Assembly: GCA_021738405.1 (NCBI GenBank)
Contig: JAIPCC010000017.1
Span: forward strand, 1 to 35,766
DNA: 35,766 nt
Source: Crocinitomicaceae bacterium
GTDB lineage: Bacteria > Bacteroidota > Bacteroidia > Flavobacteriales_D > Crocinitomicaceae
Direction of reading: 5' to 3'
In this document: one piece after another, positions 1,929 through 20,430 of the stretch
How the letters are laid out: every line of letters begins with the position of its first letter
Position numbering within the stretch: the stretch's first letter is position 1
The notes under the pieces: model-generated
What the model was told of the DNA's origin: nothing
The model's input: only the letters and a program-made list of their open reading frames with translations
Database searches by the model: none
Made by a program: the position numbers and the translations under genes

Positions 1929-4376
1929 ATGGCCAAAGACAAAGCGACCCCAACAAACGAGCAACTCGACTTCAACACCTTCAAGCAACAAGTCCTGCTC
2001 GACTACCAACTTGCCTGCGAATCCAGAGAAGCCTCACTTTTAGGCCGAAAAGAGGTGCTCACGGGCAAAGCTAAATTTGGCATTTTCGGCGACGGAAAAG
2101 AGCTCGCTCAGATCGCACTCGCCAAACAGTTTCAAAACGGAGACTTCCGTTCTGGCTACTACCGCGACCAAACGCTCATGATGGCGATTTCAGCCCTCAC
2201 CATAGAACAATATTTTGCGGGCTTGTATGCCCACACCGACGTCGCCATTGAGCCGCAATCAGCTGGTCGACAAATGGGCGGGCACTACGCCACCCGCAAC
2301 CTAGATGCGCAGGGCCAATGGAAAGACCTCATGTCACAGAAGAACAGCTCTGCAGACATCTCCCCTACCGCCGGGCAAATGCCGCGCTTACTCGGCCTCG
2401 CTCAAGCCTCTAAAATATACCGCGAACACCCTACACTCAAAGAACTCGAAGCGTTCAAAAAATTTACCAACGGCGGCAATGAAGTCGCTTTTGGCACCAT
2501 CGGCGATGCCTCTACCTCAGAAGGCCCATTCTGGGAAACCATGAACGCCGCTGGGGTTTTGCAAGTACCAATGGTGATGTCTGTCTGGGACGACGGCTAC
2601 GGGATTTCTGTCCCTCGCGAACTCCAGACCACCAAAGGCAGTATCTCCGACGCCCTCGCCGGATTCCAACGCAACGCCGATCAAAAAGGATTTGAAATAT
2701 TGGTTACCAAAGGCTGGGATTACCCTCACCTTTGTGAAACCTACGAAAAAGCAGTTCAAATTGCCCGCAATGAACACGTGCCGGTCTTGGTGCATGTCAA
2801 AGAAGTAAACCAGCCACAAGGGCACTCTACTTCGGGCTCACACGAGCGCTACAAATCTGAAGAGCGCCTCGCTTGGGAATCCGAATACGATTGCATTGCC
2901 AAATTCAAAGAATGGATCCTTTCTTTTGCACAAAAAGGCCTCGTACTCGCTACTGAAGAAGAACTCGACGCCATCTCAAGCGCAGCCAAAGAAAGCATCA
3001 GAAATGCGAAGAACAGTGCGTGGACCGCTTTCACCAACGACATTATACAAGACAAACAAGAGTTGCTCGAACTCTTAAACAGATTCGATGCCAACCACCC
3101 TCTTCATGCACGCGCTACAGCCTTGCACCAACAACTCAGCAAAGAAAAAGACAGCATCCGTCGAGACCTCCTTTCGGCCGCTCGCCTTCTTTTGCGCCAA
3201 AGTTTGCAAGTCCAAAGCCCTGAACGCTATGCGCTCGCCAATTGGGTAGGTCGCATTCAACTCAAAGCCCAAGACCGCTACAGCTCGTATTTGTATTCTG
3301 CCTCTGAGCAAAATATTGCGAGCATCTCTAAAGTCCCGGTTGCCTACGCCTCCGAAAACCAAATGGAAGACGGTCGCATCATTTTGCGTGAAAACTACCG
3401 CAAAATTCTAGAAACACGTCCAGAAGTACTCGTTTTTGGCGAAGACGCCGGAAAAATTGGTGGCGTTAACCAGAGTTTAGAAGGCTTACAAGAACAATTT
3501 GGCAATTTGCGCGTCTCCGACACAGGTATCCGCGAGTGCACCATTATTGGACAAGGCATCGGAATGGCCATGCGTGGCTTGCGCCCCATTGCCGAAATTC
3601 AATACCTAGATTATTTGCTTTACGGCATTCAAATTATGTCCGACGACCTCGCAACGGTTCAGTATCGCACCAAAGGCGGACAAAAAGCACCACTCATTAT
3701 TTCTACCCGCGGCCACCGCTTAGAAGGCATTTGGCACAGCGGATCTCCAATGGGTATGATCATCAATTCGCTACGCGGTGTTCACGTTTGTGTACCGCGC
3801 AACATGACCAAAGCCGCAGCTTTTTACAACACGCTACTTCAGGCCGACGAACCTGCATTGGTCATTGAGCCACTGAACGGTTACCGCAGCAAAGAGCGCA
3901 TGCCGCTTAATTTCGGCGAATTCACTGAGCCATTAGGCGTTCCTGAAATCGTGCAAGAAGGGATCGACCTCACCCTTGTTTCTTATGGCTCCACATTTAA
4001 TATCTGCGAACAAGCCGTCGCACAACTCGCAGACTTCGGTGTTTCTGTTGAACTCATCGATGCGCAAACCTTGCTTCCGTTTGACATCCATCACGTCATT
4101 GGCCAATCTTTAGCCAAGACCAACGCGCTCTTAATTGTAGACGAAGATGTCAGCAGCGGTGCGAGTGCCTTTATGCTCGATCAAATTTTAGTCAAGCAAA
4201 ACGGCTACCAACACCTCGATCTCGCGCCACAAACCATGGCAGCCAAAGACCACCGTCCTGCCTATGGCTCCGACGGCGATTACTTCAGCAAGCCCAACCT
4301 CGACGACATCATCGAAAAGGTCCTGGACATGATGCACGACCTCGACCCAGAAAGTTTTCCGAAGATTTATGAATAG
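1929..4376 (+). CDS. Fused 2-oxoacid dehydrogenase E1, alpha and beta subunits in one chain
   Basis: Thiamine-diphosphate-dependent decarboxylase (E1) of a 2-oxoacid dehydrogenase complex, probably branched-chain (2-oxoisovalerate) or a broad 2-oxoacid type. 815 residues. The alpha half (about 1-330) carries the ThDP region GDASTSEGPFWETMNAAG near 192 and WDDGYGISVP near 220, a variant of the classical GDG...NN motif. The beta half (about 480-815) carries VLVFGEDAGKIGG, DTGIREC, AEIQYLDYLLYG and a C-terminal transketolase domain (LVSYGSTFNIC, DAQTLLPFD, IVDEDVSSGASAF). Such fusions are common in Bacteroidota. No E2 or E3 gene is nearby, so those subunits must come from elsewhere. The 14 in-frame codons upstream of 1929 are rejected because the promoter lies within them. 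Confidence 0.9.
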   Translation: MAKDKATPTNEQLDFNTFKQQVLLDYQLACESREASLLGRKEVLTGKAKFGIFGDGKELAQIALAKQFQNGDFRSGYYRDQTLMMAISALTIEQYFAGLYAHTDVAIEPQSAGRQMGGHYATRNLDAQGQWKDLMSQKNSSADISPTAGQMPRLLGLAQASKIYREHPTLKELEAFKKFTNGGNEVAFGTIGDASTSEGPFWETMNAAGVLQVPMVMSVWDDGYGISVPRELQTTKGSISDALAGFQRNADQKGFEILVTKGWDYPHLCETYEKAVQIARNEHVPVLVHVKEVNQPQGHSTSGSHERYKSEERLAWESEYDCIAKFKEWILSFAQKGLVLATEEELDAISSAAKESIRNAKNSAWTAFTNDIIQDKQELLELLNRFDANHPLHARATALHQQLSKEKDSIRRDLLSAARLLLRQSLQVQSPERYALANWVGRIQLKAQDRYSSYLYSASEQNIASISKVPVAYASENQMEDGRIILRENYRKILETRPEVLVFGEDAGKIGGVNQSLEGLQEQFGNLRVSDTGIRECTIIGQGIGMAMRGLRPIAEIQYLDYLLYGIQIMSDDLATVQYRTKGGQKAPLIISTRGHRLEGIWHSGSPMGMIINSLRGVHVCVPRNMTKAAAFYNTLLQADEPALVIEPLNGYRSKERMPLNFGEFTEPLGVPEIVQEGIDLTLVSYGSTFNICEQAVAQLADFGVSVELIDAQTLLPFDIHHVIGQSLAKTNALLIVDEDVSSGASAFMLDQILVKQNGYQHLDLAPQTMAAKDHRPAYGSDGDYFSKPNLDDIIEKVLDMMHDLDPESFPKIYE

Positions 4377-4413: not shown

Positions 4414-4815
4414 GTGCTCAGAAGTCTTTTTAGTCTTTTACTGGTCGCCTTATTCATCTCAAAGCTTGTGTATGGTTTGATTTGGCAAGTCCATTATGAG
4501 CTCAATAAAGCTGAAATCACCGCGCGTTATTGTGAAAACAAAAACAGACCTGAACTCCATTGTAACGGTCAATGCTATCTCGCAAAGCAACTTCAAAAAG
4601 CTGATTCCGCTCTCCAAGCCAAAGAGCAAGAGCAACAAAATCATCTCGATCTTGGTGCTAAAATCATTTCAGAACAATTCTATATACTGAATGAAGCTCA
4701 ATTTTCAGTTTTGCAAGCTCCATTAGTTCAAGCACAGAAAGAAACCCTGAGTAAAGCAGCTCATTATTCCTATAACTATATTCAAAACTGTTTTCATCCA
4801 CCTTGTATCGCTTGA
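4414..4815 (+). CDS. Small membrane-anchored Cys-rich protein, first gene of MbnP/MbnH-like operon
   Basis: 133 residues; no assigned function. The N-terminus is one hydrophobic segment (LRSLFSLLLVALFISKLVYGLIW) acting as an uncleaved anchor or signal. The exported part carries five Cys: C40, the pair C50/C54 in LHCNGQCYLAKQL, and C126/C131 in the tail NCFHPPCIA. The HCNGxCYL motif and FHPP tail belong to a small family I associate with metal-related gene clusters in Bacteroidota; that association is from memory, not a search. The start is GTG, with a -7 element just upstream. The next gene follows after 33 bases. A metal-binding or redox role in copper delivery is an inference from the neighbours. 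Confidence 0.7.
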   Translation: MLRSLFSLLLVALFISKLVYGLIWQVHYELNKAEITARYCENKNRPELHCNGQCYLAKQLQKADSALQAKEQEQQNHLDLGAKIISEQFYILNEAQFSVLQAPLVQAQKETLSKAAHYSYNYIQNCFHPPCIA

Positions 4816-4848
4816 TTGAATTCCTATTCATCAATATAAATACAAATC

Positions 4849-5754
4849 ATGAAAAATATCAGTTTAATGCTGCTACTGGCACTTTCTAGTAGCACGTGGG
4901 CTTGTGATATATGCGGAGGTGTGCATGCCAATAGTTCAATCGGACTTTTTGCAGCAAACCGCTTCCATACACTTGGCCTCAGTACACAATACAGAAATTA
5001 CCAAAGCTACGATAACGAACAATTACATTCTAAGGAGGAATTCCTACTCAATAGCTTGCAATTGCGTTTTCAACTGAGCCCTAAACTTCAAATTTACGGC
5101 CAGCTTCCGTATCAAGTTGGCAAACAAAGCCTTGATGGTGAAGTGAGTACGAAGTATGGTCTAGGCGACATGCAAGGCTTGGTCAACTATATTTTGCTGC
5201 AACAAAAAGATTCAGTGGGTATTACCCAGCACTTTTTAAGTGCAGCAGGAGGCGTAAAAGTTCCAACTGGTTATTTTGTTTCGCCGTCCAACTTGCAACA
5301 AAACATGTACCCGGGCACCGGATCTTGGGATTACAGCTTGTTGCTGAACGGTTACAAAAGACTCTCCACTCTATGGGGAATGCAAGCTGAGCTGAGTCAG
5401 ACATTGAAAGGAAAAAACACCTATGCCTTTCGCTACGGCGCCTCAAGTCAGGCCTCGACTGTTCTGGTCTATAATTATAAAGTCAGTTCTTACCGCTTGT
5501 TGGCTTCTGCAGGTATTCAAATCGATTATTTTGCCGCAAATCATTGGGATTGGGAAACCCTTTCAGATGAAAGTTTACATCAGGGCCTATTGGTGCAAGT
5601 TAAATCGAGTGTCAACTTGCTGACCTATTCATGGCTATATAGCCTTCAAGCACAGCTGCCAGTTTGGCAAAACATCAATCGTGGTGCCCTTAACTTTGGC
5701 CCACAAGTTCAAATTTCTATCCAATATTTAATTCAACAAAAAAAACAATCATGA
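4849..5754 (+). CDS. Outer-membrane barrel-like protein with N-terminal CxxC
   Basis: 301 residues with a signal peptide ending near residue 18 (MKNISLMLLLALSSSTWA), so the mature chain begins at or next to C19 in CDICGG. The rest alternates short hydrophobic and polar strands with aromatic ends (for example LQIYGQLPYQVG and LNFGPQVQISIQYLI), as expected for an outer-membrane beta-barrel or porin-like transporter. The chain ends near the last strand, apart from a short KKQS tail. Proteins starting with CDxCG and followed by such a barrel occur beside MbnP-like and cytochrome peroxidase genes in Bacteroidota (my recollection). A role in moving metal or a metal complex across the outer membrane is inference. 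Its stop overlaps the next start (ATGA). Confidence 0.65.
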   Translation: MKNISLMLLLALSSSTWACDICGGVHANSSIGLFAANRFHTLGLSTQYRNYQSYDNEQLHSKEEFLLNSLQLRFQLSPKLQIYGQLPYQVGKQSLDGEVSTKYGLGDMQGLVNYILLQQKDSVGITQHFLSAAGGVKVPTGYFVSPSNLQQNMYPGTGSWDYSLLLNGYKRLSTLWGMQAELSQTLKGKNTYAFRYGASSQASTVLVYNYKVSSYRLLASAGIQIDYFAANHWDWETLSDESLHQGLLVQVKSSVNLLTYSWLYSLQAQLPVWQNINRGALNFGPQVQISIQYLIQQKKQS

Positions 5755-6500
5755 AAAATATCTTTTCAATTTTAAGCATCGTTCTCGTTATTTTATTCGG
5801 AGCTACTTCTTGTGATAAAAACAAGCAAAAAGCAACTGGTGAGCTCGAAATCGCTTTTGAACACGTTTGGGGCATGGACGAAACAGCTTTTAGTCTCAAT
5901 ACAGATTATGTGCATCCTATGAACAGCGAAGCCCTCAATTTCAGCACTTTCAAATATTACGTTTCGAATATCATCCTCACTAAAGAAGATGGCACACTAT
6001 GGAAAGACTCCAACAGCTATTATTTAATTGACCTTAGTAAACCAAGCTCACTGAACCTCGCTTTAAGCCATGTACCTGTCGGGACTTACAAATCCATGAC
6101 CTACACGCTAGGTGTCGATAGCCTTCGCAATGTTTCTGGAGCTCAAACCGGAGCGCTTTCAACCGCGAATGGTATGTTCTGGAATTGGAATTCAGGTTAT
6201 ATCATGCTGAAGGCAGAGGGAACAAGCCCTGCATCGAGCTCAGGAAGCTTTGCGTATCATTTAGGTGGTTTTAGTGGCCAGTACAATATCGTCACAACCA
6301 AAACGGTCAATTTTGACACTGAGAAACTCATGATCAACAATGACCACGCTTGTGAAATTCATATGAAGGCAAGCCCATCTTATTTACTTTGTAATGATGC
6401 TGTTGCAAACGGTGCTAATGTCATGATGCCCGGGGCAAGAGCAAAATCTCTAGCGTTAGATTTTTATAGTTCTGTCGTTTTTGAACACTTACACAATTAA
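5751..6500 (+). CDS. MbnP-like copper-binding lipoprotein
   Basis: 249 residues with a lipoprotein signal (…LFGATSC, lipid Cys 21), so it should be membrane-anchored. The body fits the MbnP-like family: FKYYVSNI in the N-terminal half, then VPVGTYKSMTYTLGVDSL, the hallmark GMFWNWNSGYIMLKAEG (143-157) and YHLGGFSG. In characterised methanotroph MbnP, copper binding depends on oxidation of a Trp to kynurenine by the partner peroxidase MbnH. Candidate residues here are W144 or W146 in FWNW with H170 nearby; I cannot say which is modified. It overlaps the barrel gene by four bases, and the peroxidase starts five bases downstream, as expected for a working pair. No methanobactin genes are visible. 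Confidence 0.75.
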   Translation: MKNIFSILSIVLVILFGATSCDKNKQKATGELEIAFEHVWGMDETAFSLNTDYVHPMNSEALNFSTFKYYVSNIILTKEDGTLWKDSNSYYLIDLSKPSSLNLALSHVPVGTYKSMTYTLGVDSLRNVSGAQTGALSTANGMFWNWNSGYIMLKAEGTSPASSSGSFAYHLGGFSGQYNIVTTKTVNFDTEKLMINNDHACEIHMKASPSYLLCNDAVANGANVMMPGARAKSLALDFYSSVVFEHLHN

Positions 6501-6505
6501 TAACA

Positions 6506-7546
6506 ATGGGTTTGCTTTACCAAAGTGAACTTGATCAAATTTGGAGCCGCCTATTTGTGGCGGCTCCTTTTTTCGCTTGGCTATTCATCAGTTCTTGTAC
6601 AAAGGAAAATGTTTCAGATTTTCAAGCGCAAGTTCCTGTTTATTTCCCAAAACCCAATTACACAAAACATGTTCAAGACTTCACGAAAGGTCGTTTTGAA
6701 CTTGGTAAACAACTCTTTTTTGACCCTCTTCTTTCTACAGATCATAGCACCTCCTGCGCGAGTTGCCACAGCCAAACACATGGTTTTGCGGATCACAATG
6801 TGCGTTTCAGCTCAGGAATATACGGCAGAAAAGGCGTTCGCAATACGCCAAGTATTGCCAATATGATTTGGTATCCAGCATTTGGATGGGATGGCGGCGT
6901 CAATCATTTAGAGATTTTTCATTTAGGACCACTCACCAATGAGTTGGAGATGGGTACGGATATGAATGGCGTTTTAAACCGTCTGAACCACAATCAAAAC
7001 TACCGTAATTTGTTTAAAACGCACTATGGGGTTGAGCAAATCAGTGATTATGAATTATTCAAAGTGCTTACATTGTATATTTCTCAAATTCAATCTTTTC
7101 AAAGTAAATACGATCAATATCGGCAAGGAAAAGTGAACTTTAGTTTAGAAGAGCAAAAAGGGTACGCTTTATTTAAAAGTCATTGTGCAAGTTGTCATAG
7201 TGAACCACTCTTTAGCAATTTCAGTTATCAAAATAATGGACTTGACAGCGTATTTGCCGATAGCGGAAGAGGAAAGATCACCAAAGAAATTACGGACTAT
7301 GGAAAATTTAGAGTGCCTTCGTTGAGAAATGTTTCGCTCACCTACCCTTACATGCACGACGGCCGATTTTGGAACTTGAACGAAGTTCTTGAGCATTACA
7401 GCAATGGCATTGTTGAGAACAGTCAAAACCTCAGTCCTGATTTGAAAAAAGGAATGAACTTATCCGCAGCACAGAAACAGCAACTCATTGCGTTTTTAAA
7501 TACGCTCACCGATTATAAATTACTGAGCGATAAACGATTTTATTAA
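6506..7546 (+). CDS. MbnH-like di-heme cytochrome c peroxidase (MauG/CCP family)
   Basis: 346 residues with two c-heme motifs, CASCH at 84-88 and 227-231, and the C-terminal MauG/CCP signature PYMHDGRFWNLNEVLEHYSNG (281-301). The GVRNTPSIANMIWYPAFGWDGG stretch after the first heme is also typical. A lipid-type Cys (FISSC, C31) suggests a lipoprotein facing the periplasm. The likely role, by analogy with MbnH, is oxidative modification of the MbnP-like neighbour. The start is uncertain: ATG 6506 gives an odd signal region with acidic residues, and bases 6543-6573 form a perfect terminator-like hairpin inside this reading frame. GTG 6557 is an in-frame alternative that still keeps the lipid Cys. 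Confidence 0.85.
   Translation: MGLLYQSELDQIWSRLFVAAPFFAWLFISSCTKENVSDFQAQVPVYFPKPNYTKHVQDFTKGRFELGKQLFFDPLLSTDHSTSCASCHSQTHGFADHNVRFSSGIYGRKGVRNTPSIANMIWYPAFGWDGGVNHLEIFHLGPLTNELEMGTDMNGVLNRLNHNQNYRNLFKTHYGVEQISDYELFKVLTLYISQIQSFQSKYDQYRQGKVNFSLEEQKGYALFKSHCASCHSEPLFSNFSYQNNGLDSVFADSGRGKITKEITDYGKFRVPSLRNVSLTYPYMHDGRFWNLNEVLEHYSNGIVENSQNLSPDLKKGMNLSAAQKQQLIAFLNTLTDYKLLSDKRFY
6543..6573 (+). terminator. Terminator-like hairpin inside the 5' end of the peroxidase gene
   Basis: Perfect 9-base stem GGAGCCGCC (6543-6551) and GGCGGCTCC (6559-6567), 7-base loop, then six T (6568-6573). It has every property of a Rho-independent terminator, yet it lies between the MbnP-like gene and most of the peroxidase coding sequence. 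It could limit peroxidase expression relative to the upstream genes. Confidence 0.6.
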
Positions 7547-7600: not shown

Positions 7601-8350
7601 TTATGCTTTAGAATCAGATTTAGCCAAAGCGTAGATGACCAAACCGAAACCGATTTTGTTCACGGCGTCACCGATGTTGTACACAACATCCATCCAAGGG
7701 TTTGGACCAGCGCTACCGAAAGCACCGAACAATCCGCCTGGTGTACCAATGATGTAACCTAATGGATAGATAGCCCATCCAACAAGTACGAACCATGCCA
7801 AGATGCGTGTTGCTTTTGCAACTGCAGGACCTGCAGATTCAGCCAATTTAGCCACTTCACCAAACCATACAAGGTAAGCGATGTAGAAATAAGCTGCACC
7901 TGAAAGAACACCCCACATAACGCTGTTGTCACGGTCTACAGACTCACCGAAGTAACCTGTTACGAGCATCACTACAGAAGCGAAGATGAGTTTCCAAAGT
8001 AAGCTGGTTTTAGCACCTGCTTTTTTGGTGATCAAATAAAACTCTACACACATCAATGGAACTGTCAACATCCAGTCTACGTAACGGAAGAACGTAGGTG
8101 AAGTTGAAGTTGCAGTGAAATAATCACGCATGTAGTAATAATGGACCGCGGCGATGAAGGTGATGAGTCCGGAAACTAAAATGGATGTTCTCCATTTCTC
8201 TTCCATGTTGCGCATTTCCATAAAGAAGAATGCTGCTGCAGCCATCATGGCCATCGTTCCAATGAAGAAGGTAAACGCTGTGTAAGTGTACACATCTCCT
8301 TTTTCAAATAGTGCTTGCACGTTAAGTGCATTAGATAAAGAAAATAACAT
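7601..8350 (-). CDS. Proteorhodopsin, green-type light-driven proton pump
   Basis: Seven-helix retinal protein, 249 residues. Key residues are all present: H70 (VHYYYMRDYF), R89, D92 as Schiff base counter-ion, T96, E103 as proton donor (DTE pattern in RYVDWMLTVPLMCVEFYLI), D228 and the retinal lysine K232 (GDAVNKIGFG). This is the pattern of an outward proton pump rather than a sodium (NDQ) or chloride (NTQ) pump. The tuning site is M100, seen in Bacteroidota green-absorbing forms. It lies 172 bases downstream of sppA on the same strand and ends at a strong bidirectional terminator. No retinal synthesis gene (blh, crt) is in the window, so the chromophore pathway must be elsewhere. Confidence 0.95.
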   Translation of the reverse strand: MLFSLSNALNVQALFEKGDVYTYTAFTFFIGTMAMMAAAAFFFMEMRNMEEKWRTSILVSGLITFIAAVHYYYMRDYFTATSTSPTFFRYVDWMLTVPLMCVEFYLITKKAGAKTSLLWKLIFASVVMLVTGYFGESVDRDNSVMWGVLSGAAYFYIAYLVWFGEVAKLAESAGPAVAKATRILAWFVLVGWAIYPLGYIIGTPGGLFGAFGSAGPNPWMDVVYNIGDAVNKIGFGLVIYALAKSDSKA

Positions 8351-8401
8351 AAATAGATAGGTTTAGTTTTTCCTACTCTTTTGTGGCTTTTCGGATACCG
8401 C

Positions 8402-8499
8402 CAATAACTTATTGAATAACAATGATAAACAATTATTGTTTAACAATTGATAAAATTTATTCAACAAAATGGCAAACACTTATCTAATTAATTGTCAAT
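8402..8499. repeat. Cluster of AT-rich inverted repeats upstream of proteorhodopsin
   Basis: Within about 100 bases are several perfect small palindromes sharing CAAT/ATTG halves: CAATAA-c-TTATTG (8402-8414), TAAACAAT-t-ATTGTTTA (8426-8442), ATTGTT-t-AACAAT (8435-8447, overlapping the previous one) and ATTG-t-CAAT (8491-8499). No exact TAnnTTTG is found on the minus strand here. They may be operator sites or simply AT-rich spacer. Confidence 0.45.
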
Positions 8500-18833: not shown

Positions 18834-18841
18834 TATCTTTG
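18834..18841 (+). promoter_or_regulatory. -7 element (TATCTTTG) for the cobalamin-riboswitch transcript
   Basis: Exact TAnnTTTG match just before the riboswitch body. The -33 partner is weak. Transcription would begin near 18847 and include the whole aptamer. Confidence 0.6.
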
Positions 18842-18846
18842 CTGCG

Positions 18847-19030
18847 TTCTTAGGTGTTCGCTCGTCGAACTTAATAAGGAATCCGGTTAGAATCCGGAGC
18901 TGTATCTGCAGCTGTAAGTGTCTAAAAAGTTGCTTTCACAAGGCCACTGCGCAAGCGGGAAGGCAAAGCAACAACAGGCATGAGCCAGAAGACTTGCCCT
19001 CGAACAGCGTGAAGACTTCAGATCAAGGTC
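18847..19030 (+). ncRNA. Cobalamin riboswitch aptamer
   Basis: The conserved parts are in order. First comes AAGGAATCCGGTTAGAATCC (18875-18894) followed by GGAGCTGTATCTGCAGCTGTAA. Next is a long helix GTTGCTTT (18930-18937) pairing with AAAGCAAC (18965-18972). Inside that helix is GGCCACTG…GCGGGAAGGC, and after it comes the B12 box AGCCAGAAGACTTGCC (18983-18998). These are the hallmarks of the widespread adenosylcobalamin-type riboswitch that represses B12 uptake or synthesis genes when cobalamin is plentiful. It stands between rpsO (divergent) and a single secreted propeller gene. Confidence 0.92.
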
Positions 19031-19074
19031 GGTATCGCCAAGGGCTTCGTATACCCTTGCCGCTCCACTTTTTT
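19031..19074 (+). terminator. Probable expression platform of the cobalamin riboswitch
   Basis: Two mutually exclusive pairings are visible: GGTAT (19031-19035) with ATACC (19051-19055), or CAAGGG (19039-19044) with CCCTTG (19054-19059). Six T follow at 19069-19074, about ten bases after the second stem. This suits a switch by termination, although the gap to the T run is longer than usual. Confidence 0.4.
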
Positions 19075-19111
19075 CCGTGTCCTTGTTTAATTTTTTATAA
19101 ATTTTCAAAAC

Positions 19112-20365
19112 ATGAAAAAAGGATTATTTTTAGTTGCTGCACTCACCAGTGCAAGTTTGTACGCCCAGCAATACGTACACCAAGTGCTCATCGCCAACGA
19201 AGGTTTTTTTGATTTTCAAACCAACGCAATCATCGAGCCCGCCACCATCGGATCTTACAATCCGCAAACCCAAGCTTACGCAGTTGTTGACACCCTTGAT
19301 GGGCAACGTTTCAGCTCAGACTTGGTCATCGATGGCAATTTTTATTTTGTCGCAGCCGACACCAAAATTTTCAAATACAACCTCAATACCCACCAAGAAG
19401 TAGGCAGCATTAACCTTCCGGGCGTGCGCAACCTCGCTATTGCCGGTGACAAACTCATCGCAACGCGCGGCGAGTACATGCAAACGTTCGACTCCTACCT
19501 TCAGGTTTTTGACAAAAACACCTTGCAACTCATCGCTGCACTAGACACCAACAACGGCCCGAAATGGGCAACCCAAAACATTGTGGTTGTCAATAACACC
19601 GCTTACGTTGCTGTCAACAACGCATATGAGTGGGGCAACGAAAAAGGCCTCATCGGTCAGCTAGACCTCAGCACTTTGCAGTACGGTTCTGAAATCGACC
19701 TCGGCGCAGAAGGTAAAAACCCAGACAACATGTTCTTGTTCAACAACGAACTCTACACGGTCAACAACAAAGATTGGTCGGGTGCTTCTGTTTCAAAAGT
19801 AAGCCTCAACGGCGCAGTGAATACACAAAACTTGGCCAATGCCGTAACAGGTTGCGGTACCTCTGCCCTGCGCGACGACAAACTCGTTTACCAAATTTCC
19901 ATGGAAAACACCCTCAACGACTACAGCCTACTCAATATGGCATTAGTTGGTCCGGTTGCAGGCATCACCAACAACTTCTACGACCTCGCTCAAGAACCCA
20001 TCAGCGGCAACCTTTACGCTTCAGCAACAGACTTCTTTTCTACAGGAAGCGTGAGCATTTTTGACAACGCCAATAACCTCGTTGATCAATTTGCAGCTGG
20101 CGTATCTCCGGGCACTATTGTTTTTGATGTGCGCGCTAGCGTTGGCCTCAATGAACTCAACACTACGATCGGCGTTTATCCAAACCCGTCAAACGGCGTT
20201 TTCCAAATTGCTGGCCTCACAGCAGGCGACACCTATCAAATCACGAACGCCACCGGCCAATTCATTTTTGAAGGACAAACTAATACAATTGACTTGCGTC
20301 ATTTTGATGCTGGTGTCTATCTGATCCAAACACAAAAAGGCCAGGCACGCGTCTTGAAATATTAA
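19112..20365 (+). CDS. BtuG-like beta-propeller with T9SS sorting tail, cobalamin-riboswitch controlled
   Basis: 417 residues. Signal peptide MKKGLFLVAALTSASLYA with Gln-Gln after the cut and no lipobox. The body (about 20-340) is a YncE-like propeller. Its opening VLIANEGFFD…IGSYNPQTQ, followed by repeats such as DLVIDGNFYFVAADTKIFKYN and NLAIAGDKLIATRG, resembles the DUF5074/BtuG family. Bacteroides BtuG is a surface lipoprotein that binds cobalamin very tightly and hands it to BtuB. Residues about 350-417 are a T9SS type A tail (VYPNPSNGVFQI…LRHFDAGVYLIQTQKG…VLKY). It is the only gene between the riboswitch and the terminator at 20382, so it should be made when B12 is scarce. Function as a B12 scavenger is inferred from fold and riboswitch; no btuB is in the window. 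Confidence 0.75.
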   Translation: MKKGLFLVAALTSASLYAQQYVHQVLIANEGFFDFQTNAIIEPATIGSYNPQTQAYAVVDTLDGQRFSSDLVIDGNFYFVAADTKIFKYNLNTHQEVGSINLPGVRNLAIAGDKLIATRGEYMQTFDSYLQVFDKNTLQLIAALDTNNGPKWATQNIVVVNNTAYVAVNNAYEWGNEKGLIGQLDLSTLQYGSEIDLGAEGKNPDNMFLFNNELYTVNNKDWSGASVSKVSLNGAVNTQNLANAVTGCGTSALRDDKLVYQISMENTLNDYSLLNMALVGPVAGITNNFYDLAQEPISGNLYASATDFFSTGSVSIFDNANNLVDQFAAGVSPGTIVFDVRASVGLNELNTTIGVYPNPSNGVFQIAGLTAGDTYQITNATGQFIFEGQTNTIDLRHFDAGVYLIQTQKGQARVLKY

Positions 20366-20381
20366 TATTTCTCAACTCCTT

Positions 20382-20413
20382 AAAAAAGGCTGTTCGTTTG
20401 AGCAGCCTTTTTT
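20382..20413 (+). terminator. Terminator of the BtuG-like gene
   Basis: Stem GGCTG (20388-20392) and CAGCC (20403-20407), extended by flanking A and T runs, followed by six T (20408-20413). It isolates the riboswitch-controlled gene from the next operon. Confidence 0.85.
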
Positions 20414-20430
20414 GTGTTTGCTTATCTTTG
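20397..20430 (+). promoter_or_regulatory. Promoter of the PyrR-like operon, overlapping the upstream terminator
   Basis: TATCTTTG (20423-20430) ends four bases before the ATG at 20435. A TTTG at 20397-20400, in the loop of the terminator hairpin, lies 22 bases upstream as a possible -33. The transcript would be leaderless or nearly so. Confidence 0.6.

Follow-up and report, generated by a model that had tools for sequence, protein, structure and literature searches.

Why should a bacterium keep a complete cobalamin riboswitch in front of a single gene, and what might the exported product of that gene do? These questions are raised by a locus in the window, the 35,766-nucleotide stretch of DNA analyzed here, which is the entire contig C89 of a 2.16-Mb genome (G000) that is 99.7% complete. 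The source bacterium is uncultured and probably aquatic, and B12 is often scarce in water. Capture of B12 in the Bacteroidota is known from gut Bacteroides, in which lipoproteins act as lids on the receptor BtuB. The reading that we favor, and hold to be likely, is that the gene at this locus encodes a T9SS-exported corrinoid-capture protein that is made when B12 is scarce and serves an outer membrane transporter other than canonical BtuB. Within that reading, the ligand, the regulation, the location, the partner transporter, and B12 as the cargo of the ABC system are the parts that we infer.

A one-gene unit behind a cobalamin riboswitch

The preliminary description of this locus had claimed a complete B12 riboswitch, then one gene only, then a terminator, and the analysis bore this out. 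The RF00174 aptamer lies at 18,835–19,015 on the forward strand (cmscan, 87.6 bits, E 1.7e-20, model positions 1–189 of 189), a match above the gathering score of 31.5 across the whole model, and it is the sole cobalamin riboswitch found in G000 (one match in a whole-genome search). The open reading frame at 19,112–20,365 (+) encodes a 417-residue protein with a T9SS export signal that Foldseek, VIA-align, and hhalign identify as a BtuG-like propeller. Directly past its stop codon a terminator-like hairpin of 15 pairs with a T-run (20,381–20,414, +) ends the unit; a scan of the region found three such sites against a mean of 2.2 in shuffled sequences, and this one stands out by its 15 pairs and its position. 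The gene after the terminator encodes a phosphoribosyltransferase according to a Pfam scan, and an S15 leader recognized by Rfam sits on the opposite side of the riboswitch-propeller unit, so the neighboring gene there is presumably rpsO.

The leader has the anatomy of a transcription attenuator, with a switching mechanism suggested by the nucleotide pattern. An anti-terminator-like hairpin in the expression platform (19,014–19,030, +; GACTT paired with AGGTC) is followed by a terminator-like hairpin (19,039–19,074, +; CAAGGG/CCCTTG, with a T-run 9 nt beyond) that may serve as the off-switch. In an alignment that took in 39 of the 54 distinct leader segments (18 of the 80 loci from named contigs gave no match to the segment pattern), the order after the aptamer is the same in the relatives: a hairpin of constant sequence, one of variable sequence, and a T-run. 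The five pairs of the first hairpin are intact in all 39 aligned leaders, with one-sided changes at most, and thus offer little covariation evidence; four stem pairs of the second are maintained by two-sided changes in 10 to 15 of the 39 leaders, and the same four are broken in 4 to 8. The pairing of riboswitch and gene is not due to chance, since in all 31 same-genus genomes that carry the propeller gene the riboswitch lies 93–143 nt upstream on the same strand.

Elsewhere in the window, a DUF805b RNA motif (8,370–8,404, −; 45.2 bits) is separated by about 20 nt from a following gene at 7,601–8,350 that, judged by eye, encodes a microbial rhodopsin-like protein and is not a DUF805 gene. Positions 4,414–7,546 (+) hold genes for an MbnP-family protein (PF20243), a MauG/MbnH-like diheme enzyme, and a further pair of proteins that match no family, and by its gene content this unit looks like a copper-handling one.

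A BtuG-superfamily propeller with a T9SS tail

A signal peptide was read by eye at residues 1–18 of the protein (19,112–19,165, +; MKKGLFLVAALTSASLYAQ, cysteine absent; helix at residues 2–15 in the AF2 model). Residues 19–343 form the propeller (19,166–20,140, +; AF2 model with DSSP), and residues 355–414 form a T9SS type A sorting domain (20,174–20,353, +) that scores above the cut-offs of both PF18962 (36.4 bits against 27, E 6.5e-9) and TIGR04183 (33.2 bits against 23, E 3.8e-8), so that the signal peptide and T9SS tail proposed at the outset are upheld. SprA, the only component of the T9SS core that was searched for, is present in G000 (TIGR04189, 2319 bits, G000:C9). A lipobox cysteine is absent, the only cysteine of the protein being residue 248. 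The propeller has a net charge of −18 (median −20 over 54 relatives), and that of BtuG2 is given as −18e (PMC10404256). Identity to the window protein over 53 relatives averages 63% in the propeller versus 28% in the tail; the closest relatives in named contigs are 92–93% identical proteins from MAGs labeled Crocinitomicaceae or Flavobacteriia.

The AF2 model, built from the 54 sequences of alignment A5 (the window protein and 53 of the 80 loci, with 27 cut or closely similar loci omitted), has a pLDDT of 89 and a pTM of 0.84. Foldseek ranks 1–13 are all BtuG (13 chains from 8 PDB entries, E 2.5e-16 to 2.7e-14), followed at rank 14 by the B12-binding BtuK1 (E 5.5e-11), with unrelated propellers starting at 3.3e-10. 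VIA-align, which covers only the folds in its list, gave Z scores of 31.8–34.9 across 292–300 residues for 11 BtuG entries and 29.5 for the next entry; BtuK1 is at 26.8, under several unrelated propellers. Since BtuG is the best match to the model by both programs, the refutation set beforehand, an unrelated fold, does not apply. An hhalign comparison with 19 operonic BtuG lipoproteins gave a probability of 99.0 (E 4e-18, residues 18–338), and in an hmmsearch of A5 against the PDB, BtuG reached E 3.9e-6, while no other propeller scored better than E 0.009. The BtuG-lipoprotein profile matched the window gene alone in G000 (E 6.9e-7, at profile positions 257–336 only) and the G023 orthologue at 6.3e-12 (positions 27–336 of 337). 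Counting against a role in capture are the low identity to BtuG structures (17–20% by Foldseek and VIA-align), the high VIA-align scores that unrelated propellers too reach against the model, and the fact that the best stretch of most BtuG matches in the hmmsearch is residues 287–339.

The label first given to the domain, YncE/DUF5074-like, thus holds as far as the relation to BtuG goes, by profiles and by structure, and fails for Pfam DUF5074, which gives no match to the window protein. The window propeller belongs to the BtuG superfamily. The protein is not a BtuG lipoprotein itself, and we do not file it as BtuG because two defining features of that family, the lipid anchor and the btuB neighbor, are lacking. 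It probably works like BtuG.

Bacteroides BtuG is a riboswitch-controlled lipoprotein that is encoded beside btuB and forms the lid of BtuB (PMC10404256, PMC6143338). The window protein shares the propeller fold, riboswitch control, several residue positions, and a strong negative charge with BtuG1, BtuG2, and BtuG3 of Bacteroides thetaiotaomicron; whereas these are lipoprotein lids next to btuB, it has no lipobox, bears a T9SS tail, and is encoded alone. BtuK1 of B. thetaiotaomicron (PDB 9s6c) resembles it as a B12-binding propeller, but is a predicted lipoprotein and, by its VIA-align score, more distant. DUF4465 proteins of the BtuH/BtuJ kind are comparable as B12 binders outside the cytoplasm, but have a jelly-roll fold rather than a propeller (PMC12751083); T9SS-tailed members come first in the btuB operons of G016 and G038. 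A further parallel is offered by the T9SS propellers of btuB operons in other families (for example L070, L076, L077, and L267), which have the propeller, the T9SS tail, and the cobalamin riboswitch in common with the window protein, but form a sister clade, have BtuB and usually a BtuG lipoprotein alongside, mostly lack the E30/Y290 residues discussed below, and have no Cys248-type cysteine. A search of open-licence papers turned up no account of export by T9SS, of a riboswitch unit with this gene alone, of the absence of BtuB, or of the cysteine, and an earlier description elsewhere is possible. As a separate observation, L077 also encodes (3,147–4,106) a T9SS-tailed protein of about 320 residues with no other Pfam domain; proteins of similar size and sequence recur in several btuB operons and are possibly another B12 operon protein.

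Of the pocket-region positions compared, E30, D70, R106, and Y290 of the window protein correspond by alignment to E55, D90, R133, and Y316 of BtuG2. These residues are kept in 32, 30, 33, and 32 of the 33 rows of the solo clade to which the window protein belongs, and in 13, 14, 14, and 13 of 14 BtuG rows, while P204, the counterpart of BtuG2 P220, is found in 33/33 and at least 11 of the 14, respectively. In the operonic T9SS clade, the E55, R133, and Y316 positions are mostly occupied by other residues. In BtuG2, Tyr316 narrows the upper-ligand cavity and the loop Asn54–Thr64 holds the ligand (PMC10404256). BtuG2 Trp194 has no counterpart in the window protein and is likewise absent from 18 of the 19 operonic BtuGs. 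BtuG2 Trp272, which stacks on the adenosyl group (PMC10404256), is replaced: two alignments place Cys248 (codon 19,853–19,855, +) on it and a third is one residue off. Cys248 is present in all 32 readable rows of the solo clade (one more reads X) and in 54/54 rows of A5, and none of the 19 rows of the operonic T9SS clade has a cysteine at this position.

Distribution of the layout and the outer membrane receptors

A search for the same layout, as proposed in the preliminary description, found it in most of the genus and in a supported clade beyond. Riboswitch and propeller gene occur together in 31 of the 37 genus genomes (G000 and 36 others), and no second riboswitch is listed in those 31; the riboswitch search of 60 genomes ran with stricter filters. 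The gene is cut or split by contig ends in at least four genomes (G009, G013, G020, and G030), and internal stops are absent from the listed same-genus matches. Six genomes lack the gene. In four of them (G016, G018, G025, and G026) the riboswitch is instead followed by an operon that encodes BtuB and a BtuG lipoprotein; the Pfam scan, made for G016 only among these four, placed a DUF4465-T9SS protein first and found a fourth protein with a T9SS-like tail below the cut-off. G031 is 66% complete. G007, which is 99% complete and has MetH and mutases, yielded neither riboswitch nor gene, and this counts against capture as the role of the propeller.

Of 97 relatives in named genome contigs, 80 were retained as loci, and 75 of these show a sign of the riboswitch upstream (26 confirmed by Rfam, which was run on 29 of the 80, and 49 more that match a B12-box pattern). 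The five loci with neither an Rfam match nor a B12-box are L181, L206, and L212, near contig edges, and L216 and L217 from Saprospiraceae, where no cobalamin riboswitch was found despite full upstream sequence; the latter two also count against capture. Not every riboswitch unit in the clade is a single gene, as the apparently marine loci L209, L210, L214, and L215 (so judged in part by sample names) illustrate: the T9SS tail is short and degenerate, and the next gene encodes a BtuG-like lipoprotein of 353–385 residues (40–78 bits on the BtuG profile; no Pfam or NCBIfam match in the one tested).

Class-wide, 36 of about 53 non-genus genomes with a match reaching the propeller were examined, and solo or operonic status was assigned from neighbors within 6 kb, on contigs that are in some cases short. 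In a tree of 68 propellers, 14 BtuG lipoproteins (98/87) stand apart from the T9SS propellers, most of which fall into either a solo clade of 33 rows (97/91) or its sister clade of 19 (100/98), where 16 rows sit with btuB; long branches make the placements of G170, G236, and G040a unsure. The genus contributes 10 rows to the solo clade and named contigs contribute 4, and 19 non-genus genomes of 14 families supply the rest. A riboswitch lies directly upstream in 16 of these 19 genomes, and G104 has one at the edge of another contig; none was found in G223 and G119, which again counts against capture. The layout of riboswitch, propeller, and T9SS tail is that of a clade and not of a single organism. 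In at least 6 of the 19 genomes a DUF6580 gene directly follows the propeller gene (the domain was tested on seven proteins picked by eye, six of them beside solo-clade genes), and in G246 this gene is followed by a PF01497 binding protein and two PF01902 proteins.

The claim that no btuB lies beside the gene proved correct and, for strong matches, extends to the whole genome. The BtuB profile has no match within the window and no strong match in any of the 31 gene-bearing genus genomes (best 167 bits; 134 in G000), compared with 468–768 bits in 22 of the genomes searched with it, most of which contributed rows to the profile, and 277 in G054. Within the genus, E values below 1e-190 occur only in G016, G018, G025, and G026. 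No BtuB-profile match exceeds 87 bits at any of the 80 named-contig loci, and none at E 1e-25 was found in 18 of the 19 non-genus clade genomes, G178 having one at 169 bits; matches at that level were found in all four examined genomes that belong to neither the clade nor the btuB-linked set (G060, G361, G236, and G170) and in the control G165. The canonical Bacteroidota B12 uptake set of BtuB and a BtuG lipoprotein was not found in G000.

Other receptors were considered. The best BtuB-like protein of G000, a 659-residue receptor on C42 that is syntenic in G002, G014, G023, and G034, has TIGR01779 as its best NCBIfam match (72.9 bits; cut-off 599.7), nearly equaled by a heme-receptor model (72.4 bits), and on TIGR01779 operonic BtuBs reach 100.9 and 75 bits. 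We do not name the C42 receptor BtuB because no BtuB-profile match in the close relative G019 surpasses E 3e-13. Receptors of 816–818 residues upstream of the riboswitch (L183, L184, L185, L192, L193, and L196) and of 762–767 residues some 3 kb upstream (L209, L213, and L214) are weak on the BtuB profile (42–72 bits), and a receptor on the other strand at L211 reaches 87 bits. Among the receptors examined, no outer membrane partner of the propeller was found, which counts against the capture role.

A cobalamin riboswitch before a TonB receptor has been reported in the literature, and a second type of riboswitch-controlled TonB receptor, of 743–766 residues, was observed in G246, G045, and G055 (L290 2,323–4,623, L075 1,748–3,976, and L082 1,831–4,077; families f28/f10). 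The three are 40–46% identical to one another and weak on the BtuB profile, and they are a candidate alternative B12 transporter; no orthologue was found in 20 receptor-match regions of 16 same-genus genomes (best 92 bits).

Possible roles of the exported propeller

A separate branch of the BtuG propeller superfamily carries the signal for a different export route, and its gene is the sole cobalamin-riboswitch target found in many genomes, mostly ones without a strong BtuB match. Two testable questions follow, namely how B12 crosses the outer membrane in these bacteria and whether a vitamin-capturing protein is secreted. In the reading that we favor, scarce cellular cobalamin would lead the riboswitch to let transcription through the attenuator of a one-gene cobalamin regulon. 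The BtuG-family propeller would use Sec to cross the inner membrane and T9SS to cross the outer one, end up attached to the surface or released, and capture cobalamin or other corrinoids for an outer membrane TonB transporter that is encoded elsewhere and is not canonical BtuB. B12 would then be carried by an unlinked BtuFCD-like ABC system and reach methylmalonyl-CoA-mutase-type enzymes.

Enzymes of the latter type use adenosylcobalamin. In G000, C28 carries a PF01642 mutase pair, and a fragment of a second mutase lies at a contig edge on C40; no MetH match was found in G000, and one is present in 52 of 60 relatives. The sole FecCD permease of G000 is in a BtuFCD-like operon whose binding protein falls below the PF01497 cut-off and whose products are 29–42% identical to those of the operon directly upstream of the riboswitch-btuB operon in G041. 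A FecCD match is absent from 4 of the 31 gene-bearing genomes (G004, G006, G015, and G036), which counts against capture. BtuG2 in culture supernatant feeds cells in trans, and in co-culture it acts mainly in cis (PMC6143338). BtuG2 made in E. coli was inactive in trans according to the same paper, with data not shown there, and a non-lipidated form may therefore need something more.

A bolder proposal, possible but in our judgment doubtful, is that the non-lipidated T9SS propeller is a distinct extracellular B12 scavenger that replaces the BtuB-BtuG pair and holds cobalamin outside the cell until its release to a non-BtuB outer membrane transporter. Because Cys248 takes the place of Trp272 beside the upper axial ligand, its thiolate could coordinate cobalt; we put this forward only as a hypothesis, and the invariant cysteine yields a clear biochemical prediction.

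An alternative that we consider unlikely is that the propeller assists B12 uptake without binding B12 itself, its ligand being a protein partner or some other compound. The low identity to BtuG fits this idea, as do the sister-clade T9SS propellers, which coexist with BtuG lipoproteins in btuB operons and mostly have other residues at E55, R133, and Y316, so that T9SS propellers without B12 binding may exist. The solo clade, however, retains the counterparts of those three residues, and the BtuG profile found no BtuG lipoprotein in G000 besides. Very unlikely, in our view, is that the riboswitch uses B12 status as a cue to make a surface protein of other purpose, for example an adhesin or an enzyme. 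T9SS cargo consists mostly of enzymes and adhesins, but the nearest family by structure and sequence is BtuG, on which ground we rejected a generic propeller enzyme, and genes for DUF6580, PF01497, and BtuG-like lipoproteins follow some members of the clade. Least probable of all is a remnant of a lost btuB operon whose first gene stayed under the old riboswitch: although a T9SS propeller is often first after the riboswitch in operons of related families and G000 is small and has no MetH match, we rejected a recent remnant on the higher identity of the propeller than of the tail over 53 relatives, the intact frames (no internal stops among the same-genus matches listed and one broken frame, L218, in the 80 loci), and membership in a clade that is distinct from the operonic one, with 14 further families represented.

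Two other riboswitch loci were observed. In G040, one of two cobalamin riboswitches precedes a DUF5074 protein that stands alone and has a T9SS tail (L099 494–1,792, −). This protein groups with the BtuG lipoproteins (100/98, on a long branch) and may have exchanged its lipid anchor for T9SS export independently. At L292 1,789–1,927 (G257:C18:484788-484926) there is a weak second cobalamin riboswitch (35.7 bits), and the genes that follow it, judged by eye, are class I ribonucleotide reductase-like.
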